Assembly (NCBI GenBank): GCA_028821475.1
Contig: JAPPGB010000129.1
Location: forward strand, 1 to 64,000
Source of the DNA: Spirochaetaceae bacterium
GTDB lineage: Bacteria > Spirochaetota > Spirochaetia > SZUA-6 > Bin103
Direction: 5' to 3'
DNA length: 64,000 nucleotides
The notes under the pieces are model-generated. The model had not been told where the DNA came from. It saw nothing but the letters and a program-made list of their open reading frames with translations, and searched no databases. Each line of letters begins with the position of its first letter. Position 1 is the stretch's first letter. Positions 10,802 through 33,241 of this stretch are shown one piece after another. The translations under genes and the position numbers were made by a program.

Positions 10802-10810
10802 TGCAACTGT

Positions 10811-10972: not shown

Positions 10973-10979
10973 CGTTCCG

Positions 10980-11570: not shown

Positions 11571-11614
11571 CAGGTCAGGTCGGGTCACGTCAGGCCGGGT
11601 CAGGTGAGGCCGGG

Positions 11615-11625: not shown

Positions 11626-12360
<735 letters not shown>

Positions 12361-12361
<1 letters not shown>

Positions 12362-13590
12362 TATCCCACCCCCTTGCTCATCGACTTCTCGATGGCGCGG
12401 CTGACGCTGGTCATGGCGTAGGTGAACACCCAGTACACCGCGGCCACGAACACGAACATTTCGATCTCGGCGTTGAACCACATGCGGCGCCCGGACAGGA
12501 TGGCGTTGGCGGTGCCGAGGAAGTCGAGCAGCCCGAGCAGCGAGATTACCGCGGTGTCCTTGAACAGAATGATGAACTGCCCGACGATCGCCGGCAGCAC
12601 GTTGCGCAGCGCCTGCGGCAGCACGATGCGCGCCGTGATGTGGTGCACCTTCATGCCGAGCGCGCGCGCCGCCTCCAGTTGGCCGGAGGGCACCGACTGC
12701 AGGCCGCCGCGGATGTTCTCCGCCATGTACGCCGAGTTGTTCAGGATCAGCGCGATCAGCCCGCGCGTGAGCCGGTCCATGTCCATCCAGTCGGGCAGCA
12801 GCAGCGGCAGCAGCACCTGGGTGACGAACAGCAGCGCCAGAATCGGCGTGCCGCGCAGCACCTCAATGTACACGATGCACGCCACCCGCACGAACGCCAT
12901 CGAGCTGCGCCGCCCGAGCGCGAACAGGATGCCGAGCGGGAACGAGACCACGATGCCGGCCTGCGACAGCAGCAGCGTGACCATCAGGCCGCCCCACTGC
13001 TTGGTGCCCACGAACGGCAGCGCCTCGCTCTCGGCGAAGCCGCGCAGGAACACCAGCCCGCCCAGGAACAGCAGCAGCCAGATCCCCAGCACCCAGCGGG
13101 CGCTGCCCAGCACCGTATAGCGGCCCACCAGCCAGCCGGCGCCCACCAGCACGGTGTTGAGCAGCAGGAAGATGCGGAAACCCGCGCCGAGGCTGGCGAA
13201 CTCGACCGGCAGCAGCGCCACCAGCGGCGCCGCGACCGCCAGGCTGACGGCGAGCCGGCGGCAGAACCCGGGCCACACCGACCAGCCCAGGCCCAGCACG
13301 AACGGCAGGGCGAGCATCACCACGCCGGCGCGCCACACCTCCTCGTCGGGATACTGGCCCACCAGCAGCACCTGCAGGTTCTGGGTCAGCACCGCCCACT
13401 CGGCGGTCTGCAGCGCCCAGCCGCCGAACCCTCGCAGCACGTAGTACGCGGCGGCGAGTACGGCAACGGTCAGCAGGGCGTTGTACCAGGTGTCGAGCAG
13501 GTTGGCGCGCACCCAGCCGAGCGGGCCGGTGCTCGCTGCCGGCGGTCTGACTTCGTCGGCCCTGTCCACGCTGCCGGCCACGTCCGCCAT
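12361..13590 (-). CDS. aapM: General L-amino-acid ABC permease, AapM type
   Basis: The protein has 409 residues. The N-terminal half has several extra membrane segments, as AapM proteins do. The C-terminal half is a His/Glu/Gln permease domain with EAA motif [20 protein letters not shown]. The start lies 3 nt after the AapQ stop on the minus strand. It forms the channel with AapQ. Confidence 0.9.
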
Positions 13591-13593
13591 GCG

Positions 13594-14811
13594 CTAACGC
13601 TCCACGATCTGCACCGACCGGTTGTACAGGTTGCCGATCAGCGAGTAGACGCCGGCGATGACCAGGTAGGTGGCGATGATCAGCAGGAACATCGGCGCCG
13701 AGCTGCCCGACTGTTCGATGATGTTGCGCGTGATCACGTAGATGTCCGCGTACCCCACCACGATGGCCAGCGACGAGCCCTTGGTGAGGTTGATGTACTG
13801 GCCGATGGTGGGCGGCACGATGATGCGCAGCGCCTGCGGAATCACGATGTAGCGCAGCACGTGCACTTCGCTCAGCCCCACGGCGCGCGCCGCTTCGAGC
13901 TGCCCGCGGGGGATCGACTGGATCGCCCCGCGCACGATCTCGCCGATGTAGGTGGCGATGTACACGGTCAGGCACGCCACCAGGGCGAAGTACTCCGGCG
14001 TCATGCGCAGCCCGCCGCGGAAGTTGGTGCCCTTGAGAAACGGCACGGAGGGGGTCAGCGGCGGCTCGCCGCCGCCGCCGGCCAGCACCAGCCAGCCGAG
14101 CGCCCCCACCACCGCCAGCAGGCCGAATGCCGCCAGGTTGGGATATGAGGGGGTGCCGGTGCGTTTCTCGCGGCCCTTCAGCCAGCGGCGCACGAAGTAG
14201 CCGGCGATCAAGGCGGCCAGCACGATCAGCAGCCAGGTGCCGAAGCTGGCGGTCGGTTCACCCCAGATGGTGTACACGCCGCGGTTGCTCAGGAAGATCG
14301 GCCCCGGCAGGCGGATCGCCTCCTTGGTGATCGGCATGCGCAGCACCAGCCCGAAGTAGAAGAAGTAGCAGGTCACGATCAGCGGGATGTTGCGGATGGC
14401 GCCGATGTAGACCGCGAAGATCTTCTGCACCAGCCAGTTGTGCGACAGCCGCGCCACCCCGACCAGCACGCCCAGGATCGTCGCCAGCACGATGCCGAGC
14501 AGGGTGGCGCGCAGGGTGTGCACCACCCCGACCAGGAACGCGTAGAAGTAGGAGTTGTCCGGGGAGTAGGGGATGGCGGCATTGGAGATCTTGATCGATG
14601 CGCGCAACGAGAGAAAGCCGAAGCCCAGGTCGACACCGCGCTTCTCGGCGTTGACGAACAGGTTGTTCAGCAGGAACCCGATCAGCCCGACGATGAGCAA
14701 CGCCGCGGCGATCTGCGTGGCCGCCTGCAGGACGTGGATGTTGCGCCACAGCGGCACGCTGGAGTGGGTCTCGACGCGACTGCGCAGGTCGCCCTGGGCG
14801 GGGCCGGACAT
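13594..14811 (-). CDS. aapQ: General L-amino-acid ABC permease, AapQ type
   Basis: The protein has about 405 residues from ATG 14811 (MSGPAQGDLRSRV). A first membrane helix (AALLIVGLIGFLLNNLFV) is followed by a periplasmic stretch and the permease domain, with EAA motif EAARAVGLSEVHVLRYIVIP. An upstream ATG at 14850 is in frame but lies within the hairpin after aapJ. It is separated from aapJ by that hairpin, which fits lower expression than the binding protein. Confidence 0.9.
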   Translation of the reverse strand: MSGPAQGDLRSRVETHSSVPLWRNIHVLQAATQIAAALLIVGLIGFLLNNLFVNAEKRGVDLGFGFLSLRASIKISNAAIPYSPDNSYFYAFLVGVVHTLRATLLGIVLATILGVLVGVARLSHNWLVQKIFAVYIGAIRNIPLIVTCYFFYFGLVLRMPITKEAIRLPGPIFLSNRGVYTIWGEPTASFGTWLLIVLAALIAGYFVRRWLKGREKRTGTPSYPNLAAFGLLAVVGALGWLVLAGGGGEPPLTPSVPFLKGTNFRGGLRMTPEYFALVACLTVYIATYIGEIVRGAIQSIPRGQLEAARAVGLSEVHVLRYIVIPQALRIIVPPTIGQYINLTKGSSLAIVVGYADIYVITRNIIEQSGSSAPMFLLIIATYLVIAGVYSLIGNLYNRSVQIVER

Positions 14812-14835
14812 GGCGTTACGGCGGCGTAGAACAAA

Positions 14836-14869
14836 GGAGCCGGGCCGCACTAGCAGGCAGCCCGGCTCC
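14836..14869 (-). terminator. Hairpin between aapJ and aapQ
   Basis: A perfect 10-bp stem, GGAGCCGGGC with GCCCGGCTCC, encloses a 14-nt loop. Read on the minus strand it is followed by TTTGTTCT. It probably attenuates read-through from aapJ into the permeases and protects the aapJ message. Confidence 0.7.
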
Positions 14870-14892
14870 AGGTCGTTGACTCAAGCGGTCGA

Positions 14893-15978
14893 TCAGGTGT
14901 TTTCCGGCACGTAGATCAGGCCGCCGCGCAGGTACAGGTTGTCGGGTCCGCGCTCGCGGTAGAATCCCCAACCCTTCTCCTCCGCCTCGACGCTGTAGTA
15001 GCGGTCGATGATCTCGCCGTAGTTGCCCACTTCCTTGATGATGTTCACGGCAACGTCGTCGGCGATCTGCAGCCGGTCCTGCCCCCAGGTGCCCTCCGCG
15101 CCGAGCAGGCGCTGCACCTTGACGCTCGCGGAGTTGGCGTACATCTCCTCGACGTTGTCCTGGGTCACGCCCAGTTCCTCGGCGTTCACCAGGATCCAAC
15201 CCACCATGCGGATCAGGTCGAACCATTGGTCGTCGCCGTGCGGCACCAGCATCGCCCACGGATCCTTGCCGAACACGCTGGTCCAGATGTTGTGGTCGTC
15301 CGGGGTGGAGCGGGTCAACTGGCGCACGAAGGAGCCGGTGCCGTCGCTGCCGGTGAGCACGAAATCGCAGCGCCCGGCGTCGTAGGCGTCGCGCACGCCG
15401 CCGATCTCGTACAGTGCCAGCTCGAACTGCACGCCGTACTCCGCCTCCATGTCGGCCGCCATCTGCACGTAGTTGGTGCCGGCGCCGGTGCAGCCGGTCA
15501 TACCGTCCAGGCTCTGCCAGTCGTTGGCGACGATGCCGCTGTCCTTGGTGCTGATCACGCCCAGGCCGGCGTAATGCACGATGTCGACGAAGTTGCCCCA
15601 GTGCACTTCGCGATGCGCGGTCCAGGTGTTGGCGATGGTCATCACGTCGATCTCGCCCGACTGCATCACCGTGGGTCGCTCGGCGAACGTGATGTTGACG
15701 ATCTCCCAGTTGTCGTCGGTGGCGTCGCCGAACACCGCCGCCGCGTAGGCGCGGCAGTAGTCGGGCCCGAAGCCGCGGTTCTTGCCGTCCTCGTCGATCC
15801 AGCTCCAGGCCGCCAACTCGGTGTTGTCGGCGCACAGTATCTTGCCGCGGTCGCGGACGATCTCCAGGCGGTGGCCGTAGCCGGCGGGACGCGTGGCGTC
15901 CTCTTGCGCGGCCGCGTACATGGCGGCCAGCACCGTCGCGGTCAGCGCGACGGCAAACACTTTCGCTGTGTTCAACAC
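14893..15978 (-). CDS. aapJ: General L-amino-acid-binding protein, AapJ type
   Basis: The protein has 361 residues with a signal peptide (KVFAVALTATVLAAMYAAAQ). The mature part shows AapJ patterns such as RGKILCADNTELAAWSWIDE, GFGPDYCRAYAAAVFGD and VRDAYDAGRCDFVLTGSD. GGAGG sits only 3 nt from GTG 15978 but 6 nt from TTG 15975, so the TTG may be the real start. It captures L-amino acids in the periplasm for AapQMP. Confidence 0.9.
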   Translation of the reverse strand: MLNTAKVFAVALTATVLAAMYAAAQEDATRPAGYGHRLEIVRDRGKILCADNTELAAWSWIDEDGKNRGFGPDYCRAYAAAVFGDATDDNWEIVNITFAERPTVMQSGEIDVMTIANTWTAHREVHWGNFVDIVHYAGLGVISTKDSGIVANDWQSLDGMTGCTGAGTNYVQMAADMEAEYGVQFELALYEIGGVRDAYDAGRCDFVLTGSDGTGSFVRQLTRSTPDDHNIWTSVFGKDPWAMLVPHGDDQWFDLIRMVGWILVNAEELGVTQDNVEEMYANSASVKVQRLLGAEGTWGQDRLQIADDVAVNIIKEVGNYGEIIDRYYSVEAEEKGWGFYRERGPDNLYLRGGLIYVPENT

Positions 15979-15980
15979 AG
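15966..15980. promoter_or_regulatory. 15-bp palindrome across the aapJ start
   Basis: CTGTGTTCAACACAG is a perfect inverted repeat around one central base. It covers the initiation region of aapJ, so it could be a repressor site or could pair in the mRNA to limit translation. The role is inferred. Confidence 0.35.
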
Positions 15981-16320
15981 TCCTCCTGTTGCGGCGCTGC
16001 CGGTCTGCCGGCGGCGCCGTACTTGATGTGATGAGTTCGTTGGTATTCTGTCAGCACATTGGTTTCCCCTGCAAGCTCCCGCGGCGCAAGGAACGCCGTA
16101 GGGCGCCGCAAGGGCCTTAAGGATGTAGCGGTTTACAGATGGATGCCTTGCGTCGGATACTTCGCGGCTCACAGGAGGCGCACCAGATGAGCGAAGTCCT
16201 GGGCCGCGACCCGATTTCAGCGCCGGCGAGCAGCTACCGTGAGTACCGGCATGCGGGTACCGGGAAACGAGGTCCGGGGCGAAGGGCTGGTGATCACAGA
16301 CGCCCGATGGAGATACAAGC
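15981..16320. other. Intergenic region between aapJ and apnO
   Basis: This 340-bp divergent region should carry the promoters for aapJQMP (minus) and the apionate operon (plus). AGGAGG for aapJ is at its left edge. I see no convincing -35/-10 pair, riboswitch or further gene. Confidence 0.4.
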
Positions 16321-17148
16321 ATGAAGATTGCGTTGCTGGGAGCCGGCGGCAAGATGGGCTGCCGCATTGCTGACAACTTGCTGCATGACGGCACCAATGA
16401 GATCGCCGCGGTGGAGGTGTCGGCTGCGGGCCGCGCCAACGTTCAGGAGCGCGGACTGGAGGCCGTATCGCCTGAGCAGGCAGTCCCCGGCGCCGGGGCG
16501 GTGATCCTGGCGGTGCCCGACCGGCTGATTCGCACGATCGCGCGCGACGCGGTCCCGCTGATGGACCCTGGGTCGATGCTGATTGCGCTCGATCCGGCCG
16601 CTCCGTACGCCGGGGCGCTGCCTGAACGGCCGGACGTCACGTACTTCTGCACGCACCCCTGTCATCCGCCGCTGTTCGGCGTTGAGACCCGGCCGGAAGC
16701 CCGCGCCGACTGGTTTGGCGGTACGGCTCGCCAGCATATCGTGTGTGCCCTGGCACAGGGTCCGGAGACCGACTATGCCGCCGGTGAGCGGCTGGCGCGC
16801 ACTATCTATGCCCCGGTAATCGACAGCTTCCGGGTCACGGTGGAGCAGATGGCGATCCTGGAACCGACCCTGGTCGAGACCTTCACCGCCACGCTGATCA
16901 GCGCGATGAAAGAGGGGCTGGACACGGTGGTGGAGATGGGTGTGCCGCGCGACGCGGCGGAGGCGTTCCTGTTTGGCCACCTGCGCACCGAGTTCGGCAT
17001 CATCTTCGGGTTCTCCGGGTTCCCGTTCTCTGACGGCGCCCAGCTCGCCGTGGATAAGGCGGGTCCGCGCATCTTCCGCGACGACTGGAAGCAGATCTTC
17101 ACGCTGGAGTCGCTGCGCCGCAGCGTGACCGAGATTGTGGGTGACTGA
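16321..17148 (+). CDS. apnO: D-apionate oxidoisomerase
   Basis: The protein has 275 residues. The N-terminus MKIALLGAGGKMGCRIADNL is a Rossmann NAD-binding fold. The remainder resembles the phosphogluconate-dehydrogenase-like C-terminal domain of the ApnO family (THPCHPPLFG, FGHLRTEFGIIFGF). ApnO converts D-apionate to 3-oxo-isoapionate. The assignment rests mainly on context: the next two genes are a RuBisCO-like protein and a DUF1537 kinase, and an ApnL-type lactonase is beside them, the known apionate gene set. It overlaps the next gene by 8 nt if that gene begins at GTG 17141. Confidence 0.8.
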   Translation: MKIALLGAGGKMGCRIADNLLHDGTNEIAAVEVSAAGRANVQERGLEAVSPEQAVPGAGAVILAVPDRLIRTIARDAVPLMDPGSMLIALDPAAPYAGALPERPDVTYFCTHPCHPPLFGVETRPEARADWFGGTARQHIVCALAQGPETDYAAGERLARTIYAPVIDSFRVTVEQMAILEPTLVETFTATLISAMKEGLDTVVEMGVPRDAAEAFLFGHLRTEFGIIFGFSGFPFSDGAQLAVDKAGPRIFRDDWKQIFTLESLRRSVTEIVGD

Positions 17149-18439
17149 TGCGGTGACCGAGGCAGCGCCGCCCGATGCGACGCTGGCGACGTACCGGATC
17201 GAGACCCCGCTGGCGCTGGACAGAGCCCTGGGCATGCTCGCCGGCGAAGGATCCACGGGGACCTTCGTCCCGGTCCTCGGTGAGACCGACGCGCTGAAAG
17301 CCCGGTTCGCCAGCCGCATCGTGGCGGTGCGCGAGCTGCCGCCGTCCGCTGCGGCGTCCCTGTCAAGTCGCAAGGACCCGGGTGCCGGTGCGACCTATCG
17401 GCGCGTGGAGGTCGACGTCAGTGTCCCGCTGGAGGCGACGGGAACGCAGCTCACCGCGATTCTGGCCGCGGTGGCCGGCAACGTGTTCGAACTCGGCGAG
17501 GTGACCGGCATGCGCCTGACCGACCTGCGCCTCCCCCACGCCGTGCTCGCAGCGCACCCGGGGCCGGCACACAGCGTCACCGGTACCCGTCGATTGAGCG
17601 GAGTCGCGGACGGGCCGATCATCGGCACCATCATCAAACCCAGCATCGGGCTCACCCCGGAGCAGACCGCGCAACGCGCCGGCGAGCTGGCCGCGGCCGG
17701 CGTGGACTTCATCAAGGATGACGAGCTGCTGGCCGGTCCCGCGTACTCGCCGCTGCAGCAGCGGGTGCAGGCGGTCATGCCGGTGCTGCGGCAGGCGGCA
17801 GACCGCGCCGGCAGACAGGTCATGTATGCGTTCAACATCACCGCGGACACGCTGGATGAGATGCTGCGCAACCATGACCTGGTACACGCCGCAGGCGGGA
17901 CCTGTGTGATGGTCAGCGTGCACCAGGTCGGAGTGACCGGCGTGCGCACGCTCCGTGAGCGGTGCCGGCTGCCGATCCACGGGCATCGCAACGGCTGGGC
18001 GCAACTGACTCGCGCGCCCGCGCTGGGGCTGGAGTTCCGGGTCATGCAGCAGGTGTGGCGCTTGGCCGGCATCGACCACCTGCACGTCAACGGCATCGGC
18101 AACAAGTTCTGGGAAAGCGACGAGTCGGTGGTGGCGTCGCTGCGGTCCTGTCTGCGGCCGCTGCGTAATGAGTCCGACCGCGCCATGCCGGTGATCTCAT
18201 CAGGTCAGTGGGGCGGACAGGCGCCGGCCACGCTGCGCAGGGGCGGGACACAGGACCTGATGTACCTGGCCGGAGGCGGAATCCAGGGTCACCCCGGCGG
18301 TATCGCGGCAGGCGTGTGCGCCGTGCGTGCGGCGTGGCAGGCGGCCCGCGACGGAATCGACCTGGCGGACGCCGCCCGCGACGTCCCGGAGCTGGCAGCG
18401 GCACTCGACGCATTCGGGGCCACGCGGCGACCGCAGTGA
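17141..18439 (+). CDS. oiaX: RuBisCO-like protein, 3-oxo-isoapionate-4-phosphate decarboxylase
   Basis: The protein has about 432 residues. The RuBisCO fold is plain: IIGTIIKPSIGL (Lys about 166), VDFIKDDELLAGP with the carbamylated lysine (about 192) and metal-binding Asp and Glu, HGHRNGWAQLTR, and phosphate-binding SGQWGGQAP and GGGIQGHPGG. The two lysines are 26 residues apart, as K175 and K201 are in RuBisCO. With apnO and oiaK as neighbours the best call is OiaX, which decarboxylates 3-oxo-isoapionate 4-phosphate to a tetrulose phosphate. A transcarboxylase/hydrolase (OiaT) role is the main alternative. GTG 17153 is another possible start. Confidence 0.8.
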   Translation: MTDAVTEAAPPDATLATYRIETPLALDRALGMLAGEGSTGTFVPVLGETDALKARFASRIVAVRELPPSAAASLSSRKDPGAGATYRRVEVDVSVPLEATGTQLTAILAAVAGNVFELGEVTGMRLTDLRLPHAVLAAHPGPAHSVTGTRRLSGVADGPIIGTIIKPSIGLTPEQTAQRAGELAAAGVDFIKDDELLAGPAYSPLQQRVQAVMPVLRQAADRAGRQVMYAFNITADTLDEMLRNHDLVHAAGGTCVMVSVHQVGVTGVRTLRERCRLPIHGHRNGWAQLTRAPALGLEFRVMQQVWRLAGIDHLHVNGIGNKFWESDESVVASLRSCLRPLRNESDRAMPVISSGQWGGQAPATLRRGGTQDLMYLAGGGIQGHPGGIAAGVCAVRAAWQAARDGIDLADAARDVPELAAALDAFGATRRPQ

Positions 18440-19839
18440 AACTCGTCTACCTGGGCGACGACGTCACCGGGACCGTCTCCGTCGCGGAGGCGTTCTGCGA
18501 GTCCGGAGTGCGCAGCGTCGTGTTCCTGCAACCCCCGACCGCGGAGGATCTCACCGCGCGATTCTCCGGCGTCGTCGCCGCAGGAGTAGCCAGTGGCACC
18601 CGGAGCATGCCGCCTGACGCCCTCCGCCATGAAGTGCGCCGCATTGCGCGCAGCCTGGCGGAGCTCGGTCCGGAGTTGTTCCTCTACAAGGTCTGTTCCA
18701 CCTTCGACTCGTCGCCGGACACCGGCAGCATCGGTGCAGCCCTGGAGGAGTTGGCGTCCCTGTTTCCGTCGCGGGTGGTGCCGGTGTACCCGGCGGCGCC
18801 GCGCTTTGGCCGCTACACCCTGTTCGGCAACCACTTCGCGGCGCTCTGGGATGAGGTGCTGCGGCTCGACCGCCACCCGTCGCTGGCCCAGCATCCGTCA
18901 ACTCCCATGCAGGAGGCCGACCTGCGGCGCCATCTTGCCGCGCAGACCGGCCTGCGCCAGCGCCTGGCTGACGTACGCACGGTTGCGGCGGGCCCCGACC
19001 AACTCACCGCCGCCTACGTGGGCGGTGGCGCGGACGGCGACCTCGTTGTCACCGATTCCCTGACGGCGCAACACGTCGACACGGTCGGCGAGGCGGTGTG
19101 GCGGTTGGTCGAGTCGGAGCAGACCAGGCTGGTGTGCGCCTCGCAGGAGCTGGTGCTCGGTCTGGTTGCGGCGTGGCGGCGGCGCGGATTCTCGCTGCGC
19201 CAGCGCCTCCCGGACCCGCCGGTGCCGGCGCCGCGAGCGCTGCTTGCCGTGTCCGGCAGCGGCGCACTGCAGACGGAACACCAGATCCAGCGTGCCGTGG
19301 ATGGGGGTTTTCGCGAGATCGCGCTGCAGACGCCCGGGCTGGCCGCGACCACCTGGAACGCTGAAGTGGCGCGGGTGACCCGGCAAGCCGGAGCCCTGCT
19401 GGCGTCAGGGACCTCCGTGGTCGTGCACACCGCACGGGGACCGAATGACCCGCGCATCCCGGCGACCCGCGCCGCCGCCGGGGGCAGCGCGACGCGGCGC
19501 CTGGGAGAAACCGCGGCGCGCCTCATCCGCGACCTGGTGGCCGGCGGTCAGGCCCCCCGCCTCGCCTTGCTCGGCGGCGACTTCTCCGGCGCAGTGCTGC
19601 GGGCGCTGCAGGCCACGGCGCTGGAGATCGCGCATACGTTCGCAACGTCGGCGCCGGTTACCTATCTGCATAGCAATGACCGTGAGCTGGACGGCTTGCA
19701 GGTGGGCCTCAAGGGCGGCCAGGCGGGGAGTCCGGACTGGCTGCTGGACGTTGCCCGCCAACCGATAGCCTCCGCGCGCCGGCGCATCCCGGCCTGGGAT
19801 CACGCGCCGGCAGATCCGTCCAGGCGCAGCACGGAGTAG
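18436..19839 (+). CDS. oiaK: 3-oxo-isoapionate kinase, DUF1537 family
   Basis: The protein has 467 residues and starts at GTG 18436, in a GTGA overlap with oiaX. The N-terminal domain begins KLVYLGDDVTGTVSVAEAF, the substrate-binding part of four-carbon acid sugar kinases. The C-terminal nucleotide-binding domain carries LALLGGDFSGAVLRAL and the GLQVGLKGGQAGSPDWL end. It should phosphorylate 3-oxo-isoapionate for OiaX. The last 40 bp overlap the convergent apnL gene. The usual ADDLTG motif is GDDVTG here. Confidence 0.82.
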   Translation: MKLVYLGDDVTGTVSVAEAFCESGVRSVVFLQPPTAEDLTARFSGVVAAGVASGTRSMPPDALRHEVRRIARSLAELGPELFLYKVCSTFDSSPDTGSIGAALEELASLFPSRVVPVYPAAPRFGRYTLFGNHFAALWDEVLRLDRHPSLAQHPSTPMQEADLRRHLAAQTGLRQRLADVRTVAAGPDQLTAAYVGGGADGDLVVTDSLTAQHVDTVGEAVWRLVESEQTRLVCASQELVLGLVAAWRRRGFSLRQRLPDPPVPAPRALLAVSGSGALQTEHQIQRAVDGGFREIALQTPGLAATTWNAEVARVTRQAGALLASGTSVVVHTARGPNDPRIPATRAAAGGSATRRLGETAARLIRDLVAGGQAPRLALLGGDFSGAVLRALQATALEIAHTFATSAPVTYLHSNDRELDGLQVGLKGGQAGSPDWLLDVARQPIASARRRIPAWDHAPADPSRRSTE

Positions 19840-21692
19840 GCAGGCAGCTCGAACTCGGGGTGCTGTACGGCGCCGGCCTCGGCGTGGAAGCCTTCCGGAT
19901 CCGCGGCTGCCGCACGCGCAACCGCTGCGTCCAGCCGCCGTCCGCGCCAGCGCAGGGGCGTGCGCCCGGACAACCGCACCTGCTGCGACGAGTTTGAGAG
20001 GTTTCCCAGCAGGATCCTGACGCCATGCGCGGTTCGCAGCGCGACGCCGCAAATGGCCTCGGGCAGGCTCGAGGTGAGCCGCAGCACGGGAGCATCGGCG
20101 TTGCCGGACAGATCGCGCAGCACGTGAAACGTCGGAAACACGCCGCCAGGCCATGCGGCGACCGGTCCCGCGCGCGCGGGACTCCCCTGCCGGGACATGA
20201 TGCCGAGCCAGCCGCTCAACTGAAAGTAGGTCACGCACGCGGCGCCTGCCGCGGCGAGCGCGCCGACGCTGCCCGCCGTCCAGGCCGCACACCAGAGGCT
20301 CGGCTGACGCGGGTCGACCTGCCGTGGGAGCTGTCCAGGGGCCGGGGGCGGCTCGGCCGCGGTGGCGTTGGGATTCTCCCGCATGCGCAGCGTCACCGGG
20401 GTCACGGCCACCGGTGCGCCCCGTGCCAGTCGCCGCGCGCTGCGCACCACGTCCCCCTGCGCGCTGATGGTCTCTGCCATCGATGCGTCGTCAAAGGCAT
20501 GCACCTGCGGGTTGATGCTGAAGCACACGCCGTCCAGGCAGTCCAGCGGCGGCCGGTTGCGGTTCAGCTCGGTGAAGAAGTGGCGCGACCCGACGAACAC
20601 CGGAGCAGGTGCGCCGCCGCCTGCGTGGCCGCGCACCTGCTCCGCTGCGGCGCGGGCGCCCACCTTCGCATCCACGATCCACCGCGCCAGCGGGGTGTGC
20701 GCCCCAACCCGGCGCACCTGTTCAGCCAGGGGGTGATCCGGGATGTCGTTGCTGACGGCTGCCTCGGCCGGCACCCCCAGCGCCGCCGCCATCGCGAGCT
20801 GCGCCGGACGGGGGGCGACGCGCAGGTGCGCGAGCTGCAGCGCCGAGCATCGCGCAAGCTCCTGACTGGTGAGCGTGTAGTCGTCACCGTCGGCTCCCAC
20901 TCCGAGCCGTGGGAGTCGCCCCACGGCGCCGCCAAGCCGCACCTCGACCACCGCTGTGCCGGTGCTCGCAACCCGGCGCGAACGCCGCGGCTCCTCCACG
21001 GTGATCCGCACCACCTGGCGAACCCGGGTTCCCGCCGGCACCTCGACCGGAAACGGCTCCGCCAACGGCGTACAGTAGGTCTTGTACGAGGCGTCCGTCC
21101 AGTTGCGCTGGTCCTCCGTCTCGAACTCGTCGCCGCTCATCTCCACGGTGACGAACGTCGACGGCAACGGTTCGTGGGTGATGCTGCGCAGGTTCAGGAA
21201 CGGCTGGTTGGGCGCCACGTGGCGCGGGAAATGGCTCTCGGTGATGCGTCCATCGGTGTGCGCTACCGTGCACGCCTGCCCGGCACACGCGGGCGGATGC
21301 AGCACGCAGAACCCGATCCGGTTGCGCAGGAAGCCGCTGTGGGCCTCTCCGTCGAAGCTGAACGTCAGGGAGCGCGCCGTCGCCTCGACCCGGCCCTGCC
21401 AGGAGAAGGCGATTCCCGGCGCCTGATGATCGACCCGGAACTCAACCGTGAACGTCTCGCCGCTGGTGTGGACGTGGAGGTCGTGCACGCTGGCCGGCAC
21501 GGTACCCCAGTTGCGATCGCGTACCGCGGCGTAGATGCCGCGCACCACTTCGACGCCGCGGAAGCGTATCCAACGCACCGCCTGCTCCTGGAACGCGCAC
21601 CCGAGGGGGCCCGCGCTCAGCACCAGCGGGGGCGGCTGCGCGGAAGCGCGGCCGGTCTGGACCTCCAGCTCCGTCAGGTCACCGGCGCTCAC
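19800..21692 (-). CDS. apnL: D-apionate lactonase
   Basis: The protein has 630 residues, the usual size of ApnL. The N-terminal beta-rich domain contains EVVRGIYAAVRDRNWGTVPA, which I recognise from apionate lactonases. The middle domain has FVGSRHFFTELNRNRPP and GVCFSINPQVHAFDDASMAE, and the C-terminus is another beta domain ending in SVLRLDGS. It hydrolyses D-apionolactone to D-apionate before ApnO. It is convergent with oiaK and divergent from the BKACE gene, so regulation may be shared with the latter. Confidence 0.8.
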   Translation of the reverse strand: MSAGDLTELEVQTGRASAQPPPLVLSAGPLGCAFQEQAVRWIRFRGVEVVRGIYAAVRDRNWGTVPASVHDLHVHTSGETFTVEFRVDHQAPGIAFSWQGRVEATARSLTFSFDGEAHSGFLRNRIGFCVLHPPACAGQACTVAHTDGRITESHFPRHVAPNQPFLNLRSITHEPLPSTFVTVEMSGDEFETEDQRNWTDASYKTYCTPLAEPFPVEVPAGTRVRQVVRITVEEPRRSRRVASTGTAVVEVRLGGAVGRLPRLGVGADGDDYTLTSQELARCSALQLAHLRVAPRPAQLAMAAALGVPAEAAVSNDIPDHPLAEQVRRVGAHTPLARWIVDAKVGARAAAEQVRGHAGGGAPAPVFVGSRHFFTELNRNRPPLDCLDGVCFSINPQVHAFDDASMAETISAQGDVVRSARRLARGAPVAVTPVTLRMRENPNATAAEPPPAPGQLPRQVDPRQPSLWCAAWTAGSVGALAAAGAACVTYFQLSGWLGIMSRQGSPARAGPVAAWPGGVFPTFHVLRDLSGNADAPVLRLTSSLPEAICGVALRTAHGVRILLGNLSNSSQQVRLSGRTPLRWRGRRLDAAVARAAAADPEGFHAEAGAVQHPEFELPAYSVLRLDGSAGA

Positions 21693-21783
21693 GAGGTCTC
21701 CTCACCGAACCTGTCCAGCGAAGCGAGCTCACGACGGTCTTCGCCTATCCTATTACATTCGCAACGCCCTGGGGAGGACCTGA

Positions 21784-22611
21784 ATGGACGAGTTGATCAT
21801 CGCGGTTGCACCGTACCCGAGCGAGAAGCAGGTCGAGCGCTTCCCCGGCACACTCGACGTGCCTGACGAGCTCATCCGCTGCTACGACGCGGGTGCCTCC
21901 ATCGGGCACCTGCACGTTCGCGATGCGAACGGCGTCCAGACCCCGGATACCGCGCTGTTCGAGGAGCAGGTTGGTACCGTCCATGCGCGGTGCCCGCTGA
22001 TCATCGAAGGCTCCACGGGCGGGACGCCGGAGAACACGCGCGCGGAGCGTTGCGTGTCCTACCGTGTAGAAGGGGTCGAGGTCGGCTCATTGAACCTGGG
22101 CTCCGTGAACATGTACGGCGCGGTGTTCGCCAACCCGGTGGACGAGATCGACTATTATCTGGGCGAGCTCACCGCCCGGAACCTGAAGCCGTACCTGGAT
22201 TGCTTCGACCTGTCCCACGTCGCCCGGGTCCAGGAGCTTGCCGCGGGCGGCCGGTTGCAGTCGCCGCACCTGTTCGGCCTCGTGCTCGGGTTCCCTGACT
22301 CGTTGCCGTACGAAGACCGCTACCTGGATGCCCTGGTGGCCAACCTGCCCGCCGACTCGCTGTGGGTATTGCATCGCTACCATGCGCCCGGCGCCGCCGG
22401 CTTCATGCGTGCCCTGGAGCGCGGCGGGCATGTCCGGGTCGGCTACGAGGACGGACCGTTTCTCGCCGACGGTGAACGCGCACGCTCCAACGCCGAACTG
22501 GTCGAGGAAGCCGCCGCGCTGGCGCGATCGGTCGGCCGCACGGTCGTCGGCCCGGAACGCGCCCGCGAGTTGCTGGGACTCCCGGCCCTGGAAACGAGTT
22601 CCACCCGCTGA
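21784..22611 (+). CDS. Beta-keto acid cleavage enzyme (BKACE, DUF849)
   Basis: The protein has 275 residues. The zinc-binding pair is in IGHLHVRDANG, and the third ligand lies in VRVGYEDGPFL, both BKACE hallmarks. ELIIAVAPYPSEKQ replaces the usual N-terminal strand. GGAGG lies just upstream of ATG 21784. BKACEs split a beta-keto acid with acetyl-CoA into an acyl-CoA and acetoacetate. It shares a 91-bp divergent promoter region with apnL, and 3-oxo-isoapionate is itself a beta-keto acid, so a link to this pathway is plausible but unproven. Confidence 0.85.
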   Translation: MDELIIAVAPYPSEKQVERFPGTLDVPDELIRCYDAGASIGHLHVRDANGVQTPDTALFEEQVGTVHARCPLIIEGSTGGTPENTRAERCVSYRVEGVEVGSLNLGSVNMYGAVFANPVDEIDYYLGELTARNLKPYLDCFDLSHVARVQELAAGGRLQSPHLFGLVLGFPDSLPYEDRYLDALVANLPADSLWVLHRYHAPGAAGFMRALERGGHVRVGYEDGPFLADGERARSNAELVEEAAALARSVGRTVVGPERARELLGLPALETSSTR

Positions 22612-22781
22612 AGCGGATCGGTTACGGGACCGGTACCGTCTGGTCCAACCACCACCGCTCGGGTGGGTGGGCCGAGATCTCAGGATGCCCGAATCACGCC
22701 GATGCAGTGGGCGTAACCCCAGCGTAACCCCCGGTGGATATTGCGCGACGCCCGTTCTGTGCGTAAGGTCGGGGCACTACG
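22612..22781. other. Intergenic region with 10-bp direct repeats
   Basis: GCGTAACCCC occurs at 22710-22719 and 22721-22730, an 11-bp spacing that places both copies on one DNA face, 50-70 bp before the racemase gene. An imperfect CCACCACC/GGTGGGTGG hairpin near 22648-22670 may end BKACE transcription. Confidence 0.4.
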
Positions 22782-24293
22782 ATGACGTTCGCCCGCACGA
22801 TCCGGGTGGTGGAGACCCACACCGCCGGCATGCCCACGCGCATCGTCACCTCCGGCCTGCCGCCCGTCCCCGGCGCCACCATGGCAGAGCGGGCCGCGTG
22901 GCTGCGCGGCTGCGAGGAGATGACGGCAGTGGCGCGCATGCTGTGCCATGAGCCGCGCGGCCACTCGGGTCAGTTCGGGGCGCTGCTCACCCCGCCCACC
23001 GCGGCGGGGTCGGTTACCGGCGCGGTTTTCTTCTCGCCGGCCTGGAGTGCGGGCGGCTGCGGTCACGCCACCATCGCCATCGCCACCATGCTGGTGGAGA
23101 CCGGGGCGGTGGCCGGGCCGCTGCCGGTGGAGTTCGGCATCGACACCCCGTCCGGGACGGTGACCGCGCGGGTGCACGGTTCGGGCACCGAGGTCGAGTT
23201 CGTGGCGTTCCGGAACGTGCCGAGCTTCCTGTACCGGGCGGACCAGGTGATCGAGGTGCCGGGTGTCGGGGAAGTGCGCGCCGACGTGTGCTACGGCGGC
23301 AATCTGTACGCCTACGTGTGGGCGCCCGACCTGGGGATGCGGGTGCGCGCGGAGAACCTGCCGCGCTTGCAGCAGCTCGGCGGGGAGGTGCGCGAAGCGG
23401 TGATCGGGCAGGTGTCCCTCGACGACTTGCCGCCCGGCGTGCCGGCACGGGTCGGCGGGGTGATGTTTCGCGACGACCCGGAGCACCCCGAAGCCGACAT
23501 GAAGAACGTGCTGGCGGGCAGAGTGGGATTCGACCGCTCGCCGTGCGGCACCGGCACCAGCGGCTGGCTGGCCGCCCTGCACGCGCGCGGACGCCTGGCC
23601 GTGGGCGAGGAATTCGTGAACGAGAGCATTACCGGCGGCCTGTTTCGCGGCCGGGTGCTGGAGGCAACCTCGCGGGGAGCGTTCGAAGCGATCATCCCGG
23701 AAATCGCCGGCAGCGCCTTCATCACCGGCTTCCACGACTTCGTGCTCGATCCCCGCGATCCTTATCCCGGAGGCTTCGACTTCGGTGCCGGCCTGCCGGC
23801 GGCGCCGGAGACGACGGCCGCGCCGGCCGCGGGCGCGCGCGACAAGGTCAAGTTCTACCGCCTGGCGTGGGACGTGATCGGTTCCGAGTACGCCTCGCGT
23901 CACGAGCAGTACGAGCTGTTCTACGCCGGCGCGCCGTTCGTGACGCGCGCCCATTCGTTCCGCACCTTCGACTGGGACGGCGCCACCGGCCTGGTCGACG
24001 ACATGCTCGCCACCTACCGCCTGGAGGAGTCGCGCCGCCGCTACCTTCCATGGCATCTTCCGCATCGCGCCACCGCCCGACATCGACCTGGAGGAGTTCA
24101 TCGAAGGGGCGGTCGACATGCCGCTGCCGCACATCTTCACCATCGACATGATCCGCACGGCGCAGCGCCGCTCGGACCACGTGGTGCCGGCACCGTTCAT
24201 GGACGCGGTGAGCCAGGGCATCTCGTCGTTCAACACCGCCCCGCTTCCCGACCGACGACGCGGACTTCCGCCGGGCGGTACAGCACCTGGTGA
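22782..24293 (+). CDS. Proline racemase / hydroxyproline epimerase family protein with foreign C-terminal tail
   Basis: Residues 1-336 form a complete proline racemase family domain. Both catalytic cysteines are present: GGCGHATIAI (Cys93) and DRSPCGTGTSG (Cys255), as in proline racemase and 4-hydroxyproline 2-epimerase rather than the dehydratase, which has Thr at the second site. The family normally ends near GFHDFVLDPRDPYPGGF. Here the frame continues about 165 codons through a piece of a flavin monooxygenase gene and then out-of-frame sequence. The ribosome site is weak. The domain could still fold, but the tail may destabilise it. Confidence 0.75.
   Translation: MTFARTIRVVETHTAGMPTRIVTSGLPPVPGATMAERAAWLRGCEEMTAVARMLCHEPRGHSGQFGALLTPPTAAGSVTGAVFFSPAWSAGGCGHATIAIATMLVETGAVAGPLPVEFGIDTPSGTVTARVHGSGTEVEFVAFRNVPSFLYRADQVIEVPGVGEVRADVCYGGNLYAYVWAPDLGMRVRAENLPRLQQLGGEVREAVIGQVSLDDLPPGVPARVGGVMFRDDPEHPEADMKNVLAGRVGFDRSPCGTGTSGWLAALHARGRLAVGEEFVNESITGGLFRGRVLEATSRGAFEAIIPEIAGSAFITGFHDFVLDPRDPYPGGFDFGAGLPAAPETTAAPAAGARDKVKFYRLAWDVIGSEYASRHEQYELFYAGAPFVTRAHSFRTFDWDGATGLVDDMLATYRLEESRRRYLPWHLPHRATARHRPGGVHRRGGRHAAAAHLHHRHDPHGAAPLGPRGAGTVHGRGEPGHLVVQHRPASRPTTRTSAGRYSTW
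23829..24033 (+). pseudogene. Fragment of a 4-hydroxyphenylacetate 3-hydroxylase (HpaB) C-terminus
   Basis: In frame with the racemase, DKVKFYRLAWDVIGSEYASR followed by HEQYELFYAG and DMLATYRLEE matches the HpaB C-terminal pattern (LAWDxxGSExxxRHExYExxYxG). About 65 codons remain. There is no start and no HpaB N-terminal domain nearby. Confidence 0.7.
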
Positions 24294-24370
24294 ACCGCGA
24301 GACGCTTGCCCGCATCTACGCGATGGCCGAGGAGTCGTTCGTCACCATGTGGCCGTGGCCGGACTGCGGT
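24043..24370 (+). pseudogene. Fragment of a family-5 (oligopeptide) solute-binding protein
   Basis: FHGIFRIAPPPDIDLEEFIE and GISSFNTAP in one frame, then FPTDDADFRRAVQHLVNRET in the next, read as the middle of an SBP_bac_5 protein, where an fN motif precedes the RRAVxHLVNRE helix. One extra base near 24243 splits it. Both ends are missing. Confidence 0.6.
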
Positions 24371-24380
24371 TCGCTGGATG

Positions 24381-24482
24381 GTGGCCGGCACCATCGGCTA
24401 CCGCGGCCGCGACGTCCTGACCCTGAGTAGCCGCGAGTTGCGCCAGGTCCGCTGGAAGGAACTGTCCTACATCCCGCAGGGC
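24381..24482 (+). pseudogene. Fragment of an oligopeptide ABC ATPase (DppD/OppD type)
   Basis: AGTIGYRGRDVLTLSSRELR followed by WKELSYIPQG is the segment just before and at the Q-loop of oligopeptide transporter ATPases. Walker A, the signature and Walker B are absent. It is joined directly to the solute-binding-protein fragment, so an oligopeptide transporter operon probably collapsed here. Confidence 0.65.
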
Positions 24483-24506
24483 ACCGGCGGTCAGCACTCC
24501 AGTGGC

Positions 24507-24521
24507 GGGCGCGGCGCGCCC
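24507..24521. terminator. Hairpin between converging genes
   Basis: GGGCGC and GCGCCC enclose a GGC loop, 22 bp from the stop of the minus-strand gene that ends at 24544. It may terminate transcription from either side, although no T run is present. Confidence 0.4.
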
Positions 24522-24543
24522 GTCGGCGATGGCGGCGCGCGGT

Positions 24544-25521
24544 CTACCCCTCCGGCTCCACCGACACCACGATGGAGTCGAGGTAGAGGAAGCAGCGCTT
24601 GTCGGCGTTGGTCTCGATGCCGATGCCGAAGTTCAGCAGGCCGGCGCAGCGCTCGGTGGAGGCCCGGAAGCCGGTCAGCGGCGGGTCGAACACGTGCCGG
24701 CGCCCGGCGACGTCGAACTCCTTGCCGTGGCAATGCAGGTCCACGTACTCGTGGCGGGCGGTGTCGAAGGTGAAGCGCAGGTAGTGCCACTGGTACTTGG
24801 TGGGCGAGCGGTTGAAGCCCAGCTCCTGGTAGCCGTCCTCCAGGTCGGTGAACGGGCCGTCCTTGGTGCCCTTGGAGCCGCTGAAGTTGGCCTGCCAGCG
24901 CTGGATCAGCTTGCCGGCCTCGGCGTTGTGGTAACGCACCGACGGCCACCAGCGCACCGGCGGCTGCGGTGCGCCGCGCACGTTGCCCAGGTCCATCGCG
25001 TCCACGCTGAGGAACACGCTGCGCACGTCCAACTCGCCGAGGCGGAAGTCGGACGGCTCCGCCTTGTAGGTGAAGTAGCACTCGAAGCGCACCTTGCCGC
25101 GCCACGGCGAGGTGACCCGGCGCAGCGCCCAGCTATGGGTGCCGGCCAGCGGCGCGGTGGGAATCTTCAGCGCGTAGGTGCCGCGGAAGCTGCCCGAGGT
25201 GCCCACGTCCCAGGAGGTGAGCGTGCTCAGCATCGGCACCCCGCGCATGCCGGTGGGGGCGCGCCGGTCCACCCGCATGCTCGGGTCGGTACGCGACTGG
25301 GCGAGCATCTGGTCGAGCGGCTGGAAGTGGGGATCGCGGCCCGGGTAGTCGGAGTCGCCGTCGTAGTCGGGAAAGTAGGTCTGCCAGCCGTGGATGCCGG
25401 CGTCGAAGTCGCAGTGCATCAGCAGCCGCTCCAGCGGGTCGTAGCGCGACAGCAGAGGGTCGGCGCGCAGCAGTGCCTTGCGCAGCGCCTCGTCGTGACC
25501 TCGGTCAGCCAGCTCCGCCAT
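24544..25521 (-). CDS. Uncharacterised protein with beta-sandwich features
   Basis: The protein has 325 residues and no signal peptide. I do not recognise the family with certainty. Alternating strands rich in aromatic residues (SWALRRVTSPWRGKVRFECY, YQWHYLRFTFDTARHEYVDL) and a closing RCFLYLDSIVVSVEP resemble carbohydrate-binding or lectin-like beta-sandwich proteins. It ends 3 nt before the next gene on the same strand begins, so the two are probably one operon (the 116-residue gene first). Confidence 0.6.
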   Translation of the reverse strand: MAELADRGHDEALRKALLRADPLLSRYDPLERLLMHCDFDAGIHGWQTYFPDYDGDSDYPGRDPHFQPLDQMLAQSRTDPSMRVDRRAPTGMRGVPMLSTLTSWDVGTSGSFRGTYALKIPTAPLAGTHSWALRRVTSPWRGKVRFECYFTYKAEPSDFRLGELDVRSVFLSVDAMDLGNVRGAPQPPVRWWPSVRYHNAEAGKLIQRWQANFSGSKGTKDGPFTDLEDGYQELGFNRSPTKYQWHYLRFTFDTARHEYVDLHCHGKEFDVAGRRHVFDPPLTGFRASTERCAGLLNFGIGIETNADKRCFLYLDSIVVSVEPEG

Positions 25522-25524
25522 CCC

Positions 25525-25875
25525 CTACTCCTTCAACACCCAGTAGATGTCCACCAGCACCGCGGCCGAGCCGTCATCCGGGCCGCCGCTGACGGCGCCG
25601 GCCAGGCGCAGCCAGTTGCCGAAGCCGGCCAGGCTCAGGAAATGGCCGCCCGGCTCGCTGATGGCGGGAAACGCGTGCCCGAAGTCGATCCAGCGCACCC
25701 CGTCGGCGGAGATCTGTACCTGCAACTCCAGCCGCGGCGCCGGCCCGTGCACCTCGTGGCAATGGATCACCGCCAGCGCCTCGCGCGCCCATCCGGCCTC
25801 GTACGGCTCGGTCGCCACCGGGCCGTTGGCCTTGGCGGAGAAGATCTCCATCGCCGCGGTATGACTCTTGCGCAC
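25525..25875 (-). CDS. Uncharacterised small beta-rich protein
   Basis: The protein has 116 residues from GTG 25875, which has GGGAGG 4-5 nt upstream; the frame is open to 25986. The patterns LQVQISADGVRWIDFG, LSLAGFGNWLRLAGAVSG and AVLVDIYWVLKE suggest a single beta-sandwich domain of the kind seen in carbohydrate-binding or phage-tail-like proteins. There is no signal peptide. It lies 3 nt upstream of the 325-residue unknown gene and probably works with it. Confidence 0.6.
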   Translation of the reverse strand: MRKSHTAAMEIFSAKANGPVATEPYEAGWAREALAVIHCHEVHGPAPRLELQVQISADGVRWIDFGHAFPAISEPGGHFLSLAGFGNWLRLAGAVSGGPDDGSAAVLVDIYWVLKE

Positions 25876-26013
25876 CTGCCCTCCCCGGCGCCGCGCACCG
25901 TGCCGTGCCCTGTGCGACGCCCCCGTGCACGGCGTGGCCGCATGATATGCGCCGCACTCTCCAGCCGCAACAATGCAGTGCGTCATGGCTGGGCTGGACG
26001 CTGTACCCGCCGT

Positions 26014-26199
26014 TCAGGCGTGCTCCGTCGTTGCGACGCGTGCGATGCAGTGGAGGCGCATGACGTCGACCGGGGTGAGGACCTGGATCCCATCCCTGGG
26101 ATGGTCGCGCGTGTTGCGGGTCACGAGGATGCCGATCTCGTTGGCGAGCGCACACTCCCGTTGCAGCGCGTCCTCGAAGTCTCGATGTGGTCGAGCCAG
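26014..26199 (-). pseudogene. C-terminal remnant of a PIN-domain (VapC) toxin
   Basis: On the minus strand the reading HRDFEDALQRECALANEIGI then LVTRNTRDHP and VLTPVDVMRLH is the C-terminal third of a VapC-type PIN domain, including the distal DFEDA acidic site and the TRN motif. The front half is missing. Its upstream edge meets a 34-bp copy of internal AbiEi-like gene sequence. Confidence 0.65.
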
Positions 26200-26233
26200 G
26201 GCGCAGTGGCTTGCCCCCTTCAGCCGGAGCGGC
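26200..26233. repeat. 34-bp direct repeat, second copy at 27095-27128
   Basis: The 34 bases starting GGCGCAGTGGCTTG are identical at both places. The right copy is coding sequence (AQWLAPFSRSG) of the AbiEi-like gene. The left copy lies just upstream of that gene's promoter, at the broken edge of the PIN remnant, so it marks a rearrangement joint. Confidence 0.8.
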
Positions 26234-26241
26234 GGGCGGAT

Positions 26242-26284
26242 TTGCTTTCTTTCACCGGATTACTCATATTCATCATATGATGAA
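26242..26284 (+). promoter_or_regulatory. Promoter and start-codon palindrome of the AbiE-like operon
   Basis: TTGCTT (26242-26247) and CATATT (26265-26270) are 17 bp apart, so transcription should begin at about ATG 26277, giving a leaderless message. The perfect 16-bp palindrome TTCATCATATGATGAA (26269-26284) overlaps the end of the -10 and the start codons. AbiEi antitoxins repress their own promoter, so this is a likely autoregulatory site. Confidence 0.6.
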
Positions 26285-27386
26285 AAACCACCAATTAGTG
26301 AACGATCTGGAGGCTCGTGCCGTGGCTGCGGTACGCGACATGCTCGACCACCTGCCGTGTATGGAGATTGACGCGGTCGAGTATGAACGCAGGGTCGGCG
26401 CTGCCTATGGTATCGATGGAATGATCGGTTTTCACTACCCCGGTGGAAACTGTGCGCTCGTCGTCGAGGTGAAGTCGGACGGAGCCCCCCGCTCTGTCCG
26501 ATCGGGGGTCTATCAGCTCGAGAGCTACGTGGCGCGAGTGCGCCAATCCGGTGCAGCGAACGGCGCCCGGCGCCTGATTCCCATGCTCGTCAGCCCCTAC
26601 CTGTCTCCAGAGTCACGTGCCATCTGCACGGCCCACGACGTGGCCTATCTCGATCTTGTCGGTAACGTGCGGCTTGCATTCGACGCCGTGTACATCGAGC
26701 GTGTCGTCGCAGACAAGCCACCCTCGGAGACCCGTGCGCTACGTTCCATCTTTACCCCGAAGGCGGCAGCCATCTTGCGCGTCCTGCTGCGCGACCCGGA
26801 TCGGGCTTGGCGTGTTGCCGAACTGGCCGCACAGGCAAATGCGAGCTACGGCCACGTGAGCAATGTCCGCAGGGCCCTGTTGGAACGGGAGTGGCTTGAG
26901 GTCGGGGATGAAGGTGCCGTTCTGATCCAGCCGAAGGCCCTGCTGCAAACGTGGCGTGAGAACTATCGCCGCCCGTCCGGCCAGTCCATCACCGGATACA
27001 CCCATCTCCATGGAGGGACGCTTGATGAGCGGCTTCTCGGAACGCTGAATGCTCGCCCCGAGCGTCCACGTGCGATCTACTCGCTGCACTCCGCGGCGCA
27101 GTGGCTTGCCCCCTTCAGCCGGAGCGGCACCCAAACGTTCTATGCCGACGGACCCGGCGTCCAGTTGCTGAAGGCGGAGTTGAAGCTGACTCCCGCCGCC
27201 AGGGGAGCCAACGTAGTCCTGCACGTCCCAACAGATGAAAACCTGTTCGACGATGCGAGCGAACCGGCTCCGAGTGTATACTGTACCAGCCCAATCGTTA
27301 CTTATCTCGACCTCTGGAGCGGCAACGACCGCGAACGTGAGGTTGCGGCACACTTGGCAGGCGAGTTCCTCCCATGGCTCAAGTAG
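26277..27386 (+). CDS. AbiEi-like antitoxin/regulator with winged helix
   Basis: The protein has 369 residues from ATG 26277 (a second ATG follows). The N-terminal part (HYPGGNCALVVEVKSDGAPR) has a nuclease-like E-x-K strand. The middle holds a winged helix (RAWRVAELAAQANASYGHVS followed by NVRRALLEREWLEV). The C-terminus is an alpha/beta region. The product is followed, with a 13-nt overlap, by an AbiEii-like nucleotidyltransferase gene, the arrangement of type IV TA and abortive-infection systems. In these systems the antitoxin represses the operon and opposes the toxin without binding it. Confidence 0.7.
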   Translation: MMKNHQLVNDLEARAVAAVRDMLDHLPCMEIDAVEYERRVGAAYGIDGMIGFHYPGGNCALVVEVKSDGAPRSVRSGVYQLESYVARVRQSGAANGARRLIPMLVSPYLSPESRAICTAHDVAYLDLVGNVRLAFDAVYIERVVADKPPSETRALRSIFTPKAAAILRVLLRDPDRAWRVAELAAQANASYGHVSNVRRALLEREWLEVGDEGAVLIQPKALLQTWRENYRRPSGQSITGYTHLHGGTLDERLLGTLNARPERPRAIYSLHSAAQWLAPFSRSGTQTFYADGPGVQLLKAELKLTPAARGANVVLHVPTDENLFDDASEPAPSVYCTSPIVTYLDLWSGNDREREVAAHLAGEFLPWLK

Positions 27387-31957: not shown

Positions 31958-33241
31958 TCAGTTCGCGTGCACGGCGATCAGCAGCAGGTCGGAGTCGGCG
32001 TTGGGGAGTTGGAACCGCGTGACGCCGCCGGACACGGACACGTCGGTGGAATAGGGGCGCCGGTTGTCGAGGTCGAGCAGCGTGATGCGGTGGCGGCTCA
32101 GGTCGGCGTTCACCTCCAGGCCCGCGGCGTGCGGCAGGTAGACGGCCACCACCCCGGCGTCGGCGGTGGCGGCGGCGCGGATGGCGGGGTCGGCGTTGGC
32201 CACCAGGGCCTGGTCGGGGGCGAGGTCGGCCAGGCCGAAGGTCTCGAACAGCCAGCGGGCGTACCCGTAGTCCCAGGCGCCCGGCAGGCGTAGCGCCTCC
32301 CACCAGTCCATCGGCACGTACTTGTGGTCGTTCAGAAACCGTTTCTCGCGGGTGTGGAAGCTCCACACGCCGTGACCGCCGTAGGTGACGCCCGCCTTGG
32401 CGCCGGACAGCAGGCTCTGCCAAGCCGCCGCGCGCACCTCCGATCGCGTCCACCGCCCGCGCACCCGCCCGGCGCCGGCAACGCGACCGTGGCCCTCGTA
32501 GCACGGCTCGGAATTGATCACCGGACGCCGAGTCCGGTACGCGGCGAACTTCTCCGCCAGCCGCCACGGCAGGTCGACGCGGTCGGCACCATGTCCCGAC
32601 TGGAACATGTAGAAGTCGACCGCGTCCACGAACTCCTCCGGCAGGTCCGCCTGCGGCGTCAGGTGCATGGAGATCAGCGCATCCGGGCACCCGGCACGGA
32701 TCAGCTCCAGGGCGCGCAGGTAGTAGCGCGGCTCCTCGTCCGACTCCCAGAGCGTGTCGCCGGAGATGAAAAACATCGGCTCGTAGGAGCGAAACCGCCG
32801 CGCGACGTGCGCCACGTACTCTTCCATGATGTCGAACGGCATCGGACCGGCGACCGGGTTGGCGGTCGAACTCTTCGTTCCGGGAACATAGTTGCGCCAC
32901 AGCACGCCGAGCACCGGCACCAGGCCGGCCGCCACCGCCTCGGCCACCATGCGCTCGGCCTTGCCGAAGTAGGCGTCGTTGCGGGCGCCGTAGTCCCAGC
33001 CGCCGTCGCGTGGCGCGAACGGGGCGTCGTTGGTCGCCGCGACGCTGGTATCGTGGTTGACCGGCAGGATGCTGATCTGCAGCGCGGTGAACCCCTGCTC
33101 CCGGCGGAAGCGCACGTACTCGGTCCACGCGGCCTCCGGCACGTTGGAGAACGCCATCCAGGCGGTGTCGGCGAGATAGAAAAACGGCTGTCCGCCCCGC
33201 AGGAACCGATCCTCGGTCGGGGCGACGGTTACGGATGCCAA
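31958..33241 (-). CDS. GH140-like (DUF4038) apiosidase-type glycoside hydrolase
   Basis: The protein has 427 residues. The DUF4038/apiosidase-like fold begins at RGGQPFFYLADTAWMAFSNV and RREQGFTALQISILPVN, continues with PMFFISGDTLWES and VINSEPCYEGH (a likely catalytic glutamate), and ends in a small beta domain (GVVAVYLPHAAGLEVNADLS). GH140 enzymes release apiose from rhamnogalacturonan II; other DUF4038 proteins have other activities. No signal peptide is seen, so it may act in the cytoplasm. A D-apionate gene set lies 10 kb away, which supports an apiose role. Confidence 0.75.
   Translation of the reverse strand: MASVTVAPTEDRFLRGGQPFFYLADTAWMAFSNVPEAAWTEYVRFRREQGFTALQISILPVNHDTSVAATNDAPFAPRDGGWDYGARNDAYFGKAERMVAEAVAAGLVPVLGVLWRNYVPGTKSSTANPVAGPMPFDIMEEYVAHVARRFRSYEPMFFISGDTLWESDEEPRYYLRALELIRAGCPDALISMHLTPQADLPEEFVDAVDFYMFQSGHGADRVDLPWRLAEKFAAYRTRRPVINSEPCYEGHGRVAGAGRVRGRWTRSEVRAAAWQSLLSGAKAGVTYGGHGVWSFHTREKRFLNDHKYVPMDWWEALRLPGAWDYGYARWLFETFGLADLAPDQALVANADPAIRAAATADAGVVAVYLPHAAGLEVNADLSRHRITLLDLDNRRPYSTDVSVSGGVTRFQLPNADSDLLLIAVHAN

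Follow-up and report, generated by a model that had tools for sequence, protein, structure and literature searches.

A five-gene cassette with a RuBisCO-like protein, predicted to serve D-apionate utilisation, forms a discrete indel in a Spirochaetaceae genome

Genes and limits of the cassette

The window analysed here, i.e., the whole 64,000-nucleotide stretch of contig JAPPGB010000129.1 from a Spirochaetaceae bacterium, carries at 16321..17148 on the forward strand an apnO-like gene for a putative D-apionate oxidoisomerase (PF16896 PGDH_C, 3.6e-53). Its product is 49% identical over 274 aa to that of the ApnO-type gene in the R. etli oiaX operon, and about 50% identical to those of the ApnO-type genes in oiaX operons. 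Downstream on the same strand follow a gene for a RuBisCO-like protein (RLP) of the OiaX/OiaT kind at 17141..18439 (RuBisCO_large, 2.6e-74; open reading frame 17135-18439, with the GTG at 17141 as the likely start) and one for an OiaK-like DUF1537 kinase at 18436..19839 (PF07005, SBD_N, and PF17042, NBD_C). The apnO-like and RLP genes overlap by 8 bp, counted from the GTG at 17141, and the RLP and kinase genes by 4 bp (GTGA), the GTG start of the kinase falling across the stop codon of the RLP. Because of these overlaps, we regard the three genes as one operon, as had been proposed in an earlier note made from the sequence alone.

Convergent with the kinase gene, a reverse-strand gene at 19800..21692 encodes a putative ApnL-like D-apionolactonase of 630 aa. 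No match was found for this protein in Pfam; the NCBIfam ApnL model (NF049900, 8.8e-101) was the only family matched, and identity to rhizobial homologues is approx. 31-38%. The lactonase gene starts 91 bp from a divergent forward-strand gene for a BKACE/DUF849 enzyme at 21784..22611 (PF05853, 3.4e-57), which shows at most about 35% identity to plasmid homologues. According to the gene coordinates, the spacer covers 21693..21783 and is a possible shared control region. The first four genes had been named in the earlier note and were recovered where it placed them, and the BKACE gene is a fifth that it left unnamed within its interval. Domain matches across the named genes are full-length, with E-values far outside chance.

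The best NCBIfam models were OiaX for the RLP (NF042437, 524 bits), OiaK for the kinase (NF042436, 312 bits; second-best model 152 bits) and ApnL for the lactonase (338 bits), all three scores lying below the respective equivalog cut-offs of 700, 700 and 750 bits. The two active-site lysines of the RLP, which had been read as 26 residues apart, were confirmed by alignment: K168 and K194 (434-aa numbering), located in KPSIG and KDDE, align with RuBisCO Lys175 and Lys201. His317 is kept as well. Among 80 related loci, ApnO is found alongside in 64 and ApnL in 70, and most combine lactonase, oxidoisomerase, kinase and RLP.

In the window genome, these four genes and the BKACE gene all lie inside one segment, 16022..22740, which is missing from the congener G002; its ends are the limits of the G002 matches. 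A contig (C48) of G002, the better of the congener genomes, matches the window up to position 16021 (approx. 90%) and resumes at 22741 (85%), with only 76 bp between the two matches as opposed to approx. 6.7 kb in the window, and exactly these five genes are gone from that G002 locus. Synteny with G002 is kept on either side of the segment, so the five genes make up a single discrete indel; a misassembly is unlikely because both flanks come back to the same G002 locus. The BKACE gene is thus tied to the cassette by position. No RLP match at an E-value of 1e-20 was found in G001, G002 or G003, and relatives at the order level gave only distant matches. The single close match among 98 relatives is in G079, a genome of the same class; sampling 393 genomes of the phylum brought up no further close one. 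GC3 is mildly lower in all five cassette genes (0.84-0.86) than in the Aap and proline-racemase-type genes that flank them (0.88-0.96). In a search for direct or inverted repeats at the ends of the indel, no 10-mer was common to both. Judged from these comparisons of sequence, the indel would most simply be a gain of the cassette, by horizontal transfer, rather than a loss.

Just downstream, at 22782-24293, the frame of a proline-racemase-type gene continues into a fragment of an HpaB C-terminal domain (residues 350-409); this fragment resembles the remnant of a gene, joined on by continuation of the frame.

Phylogenetic place and site states of the RuBisCO-like protein

In a tree of 46 rows, the RLP is placed as sister to, and outside, the rhizobial OiaX clade (support 90/95). 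A second tree, calculated without the far outgroups, gave the same sister relationship with moderate support (78/92). AU tests rejected a clade of the RLP with the Labrenzia/Variovorax/Shinella type (p 0.001) as well as with the G079/Chloroflexi type (p 0.003). The nearest clade, in a comparison set that does not include a characterised OiaT, is OiaX rather than an OiaT reference. MtnW models scored 120-156 bits, below their cut-offs of 409 and 513.6. An identity as MtnW or true RuBisCO is ruled out by these scores and by the tree, in which the RLP falls with the kinase-linked RLPs. The grouping with MtnW that would have counted against the apionate reading of the earlier note was thus not found.

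The name OiaX does not follow from the best model hit. Other RLP-kinase families reach 387-539 bits on the OiaX model, similar to the value of the window RLP, so the best hit is insufficient for naming and was rejected as a criterion. Site states were examined at 53 OiaX-diagnostic positions, where the residue is invariant in OiaX and found in none of eight other RLPs. At 10 of these positions the window RLP agrees with OiaX, at 35 it shows a state seen in the other RLPs, and at 8 it matches neither. In the alignment column of RuBisCO His327, all 76 of 76 OiaX-clade sequences have Gln; His is present in the window RLP (His317), in 21 other RLPs and in form I RuBisCO. All loci with a nearby TIM-type isomerase gene (n = 30, nearly all with an RpiB-type gene in addition) belong to the Gln group, though these counts represent one clade and not independent events. 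As His is the general RLP state, it does not in itself show OiaT chemistry, but it argues against the OiaX name for this protein.

The remainder of the genome was searched for enzymes acting after an RLP. The R. etli oiaX operon contains genes for a TIM-type and an RpiB-type isomerase, which we take, from knowledge of tetrose-phosphate pathways, to convert erythrulose phosphate to erythrose-4-phosphate. In the 5.73-Mb, 95.7% complete genome studied here, a family search detected no member of the RpiB family and one of the TIM family, presumably the glycolytic enzyme. With no RpiB and one TIM, the known decarboxylase route is without recognisable next steps in this genome, while OiaT-type cleavage needs neither RpiB nor a second TIM.

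In two relatives of the same class (loci L093 and L094, genomes G046 and G054), distant RLPs with 27-29% identity are each directly followed by an RpiB-family gene.

The GH140-like hydrolase and its relation to the cassette

D-apionate is the acid derived from the plant sugar apiose, and the earlier note had joined the cassette with a GH140-like hydrolase gene to propose an organism living on apiose-containing glycans. The hydrolase gene itself is present at 31958..33241 on the reverse strand (PF13204 Apiosidase, 6.3e-72), outside the cassette by synteny, and is a possible functional partner. The Asp in SGD and the Glu in SEP are kept and align with the two best solved relatives. PF13204 is a broad family. 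By eye, the protein begins at the catalytic domain and has no evident signal peptide.

That cassette and hydrolase constitute one system for living on apiose glycans appears doubtful to us, although two observations point in this direction. No second PF13204 gene occurs in the 5.73 Mb of the genome, and the distance between the hydrolase gene and the cassette is 9.3 kb. In G079, genes for two PF13204 proteins, together with a sugar-type ABC transporter, border an apnO-RLP-oiaK cluster; since PF13204 and apionate genes are neighbours there, the two may be linked in function. However, G002 has an 87%-identical copy of the hydrolase gene directly beside its DUF6772 orthologue and is missing the cassette. 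The gene thus does not travel with the cassette within the genus and seems to have a separate history, and for the same reason life on apiose glycans is not established. Moreover, the PF13204 counterpart in G079 shares just 28% identity with the hydrolase, and the stretch that separates hydrolase and cassette contains a type IV toxin-antitoxin-like gene, two genes for FAD enzymes and further genes. The five cassette genes include neither a sugar transporter nor a D-apiose dehydrogenase. A rhizobial gene of the Gfo/Idh/MocA family is presumably a D-apiose dehydrogenase, and the genome holds no close relative of it, the best match being partial at 32%. In the form given in the earlier note, neither the link to the hydrolase nor the proposed way of life is supported. 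The figure for chance closeness of hydrolase and cassette (approx. 0.4%, from roughly 20 kb within 5.73 Mb) was set aside, as G002 has the hydrolase gene but no cassette.

Several further features were seen around the hydrolase gene. The interval 26187-27952 contains a type IV toxin-antitoxin gene (AbiEi-like) next to an ORF resembling a nucleotidyltransferase, and a VapBC-like pair, recognised by eye, adjoins the hydrolase gene at 33330-34162. Compared with the corresponding G002 loci (L142 and L143), the order in 23800-35300 is rearranged: in G002, the DUF6772 and GH140 genes are on one contig, and the FAD enzyme, zinc dehydrogenase and PhyH genes on another.

Predicted pathway and alternative readings

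We consider D-apionate utilisation, with cleavage by the RLP as the last step, the probable role of a cassette most simply gained horizontally, and put this at roughly 0.65. ApnL would open the ring of D-apionolactone, ApnO would oxidise and isomerise D-apionate to 3-oxo-isoapionate, the DUF1537 kinase would convert this to the 4-phosphate, and the RLP would cleave 3-oxo-isoapionate-4-phosphate. In calling the locus a D-apionate catabolic island we agree with the earlier note, in view of the best models (OiaX, OiaK and ApnL), the R. etli-like ApnO and an RLP outside MtnW and RuBisCO. For the RLP, both a decarboxylase and a transcarboxylase/hydrolase reaction have been reported within the D-apionate pathway (PMC6302742). 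A Rhodobacteraceae strain with the full gene set grows on D-apiose (PMC11747546).

Between the two reactions, we lean, at slightly better than even odds, towards a transcarboxylase/hydrolase (OiaT-type) cleavage, which would yield 3-phosphoglycerate and glycolate. OiaX-type decarboxylation of 3-oxo-isoapionate-4-phosphate to an L-erythrulose phosphate, as implied by the apnO-oiaK-oiaX route with apnL in the earlier note, strikes us as clearly the less probable of the two. The sister position to the rhizobial OiaX clade and the best match to the OiaX model are in its favour, but the score under the 700-bit cut-off, the non-OiaX state at most OiaX-fixed sites, the His in the RuBisCO His327 column, and a genome without RpiB and with one TIM speak against it, so that isomerases or an aldolase of an unrecognised kind would have to follow. 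Of the earlier route, the D-apionate gene set is thus supported, and the decarboxylase label, in the form given, is not. A different substrate was also considered. The cassette might serve another branched-sugar acid such as hamamelonate, by an RLP route with 3-phosphoglycerate and glycolate as end products, reported as an oxygenase reaction. The RLP of Ochrobactrum anthropi is reported to do so for hamamelose, likewise as the last step (PMC8914248), and RLP-kinase pairs are also found with SDRs, VOC proteins and TRAP transporters. The partners in the window, however, are of the ApnO and ApnL type as in apionate operons and not SDR or VOC proteins, and we know of no such partners in the hamamelose pathway of O. 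anthropi; we consider this substrate improbable. Only slightly more credit is given to a distinct branched-sugar-acid route, in which the RLP would be a branch-point enzyme, i.e., an OiaX sister with a RuBisCO-like active site performing an OiaT-type or a third reaction, and the BKACE enzyme would add an extra step. A BKACE activity directly on 3-oxo-isoapionate was judged unlikely: the Kce mechanism requires a proton on the C2 nucleophile, and this substrate has none at C2.

OiaT-type cleavage, our favoured reading, predicts the same end reaction as in Xanthobacter autotrophicus, where a transcarboxylase/hydrolase RLP acts last and tetrose-phosphate isomerases are unneeded (for the reaction, see PMC6302742). 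The rhizobial pathway of R. etli p42f (apnL, apnO, oiaK and oiaX with the TIM- and RpiB-type isomerases) has homologues of ApnL, ApnO, OiaK and the RLP in common with the window, and the RLP and kinase genes are adjacent in both. It differs in having the isomerases, where the window genome has none beyond its one TIM, and in its ABC transporter and Gfo/Idh/MocA dehydrogenase; the BKACE gene and the non-OiaX site states of the RLP are found on the side of the window. The cluster of G079 is 46% (ApnO), 49% (RLP) and 35% (kinase) identical to the window proteins. Its RLP, however, belongs to another subclade, no ApnL was found within 20 kb, and the gene between apnO and the RLP gene encodes an FMN-dependent dehydrogenase that includes a cytochrome b5 domain, in addition to the PF13204 genes and the sugar ABC transporter. 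We infer that this dehydrogenase would be in keeping with glycolate as the product in G079.

As a whole, the G079 cluster is the fuller one (L144, G079:C2:75000-94900, positions 4577-18816), comprising a sugar ABC transporter, a PF13204 hydrolase, a two-component regulator, apnO, FMN_dh/cytochrome b5, RLP, an oiaK-like kinase and a second, PF13204/DUF5605 hydrolase. Elsewhere, a plasmid of Streptomyces sp. NBC_00184 (L089, 2235-17251) has an RLP-kinase pair among GH28, GH78, GH2 and beta-galactosidase genes, a neighbourhood that points to an RLP route connected with the degradation of pectin-type glycans. In MAGs of Opitutales and Chloroflexi (L005 and L058), glycoside-hydrolase-like ORFs, an RLP-kinase pair and an Asp/Glu-racemase-like ORF follow one another as judged by eye.

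The D-apionate pathway is already known, and the window is an added instance of it. On the reading favoured here, it would extend D-apionate catabolism to what is probably a lineage of large-genome spirochaetes, in which congeners differ in the pathway by a single clean indel the size of the cassette. In a 16S tree of five rows, a sampling so thin that the placement is provisional, the genome pairs with Treponema; its 16S motifs and the spread of genome sizes within its class likewise look spirochaetal, and 16S identity to plasmid sequences was uninformative. As an OiaX sister without the substitutions of the OiaX clade, the RLP may serve as a test case for the split between decarboxylase and transcarboxylase/hydrolase RLPs, and it calls for caution, as calling such proteins OiaX by best model can mispredict the end products of a pathway.
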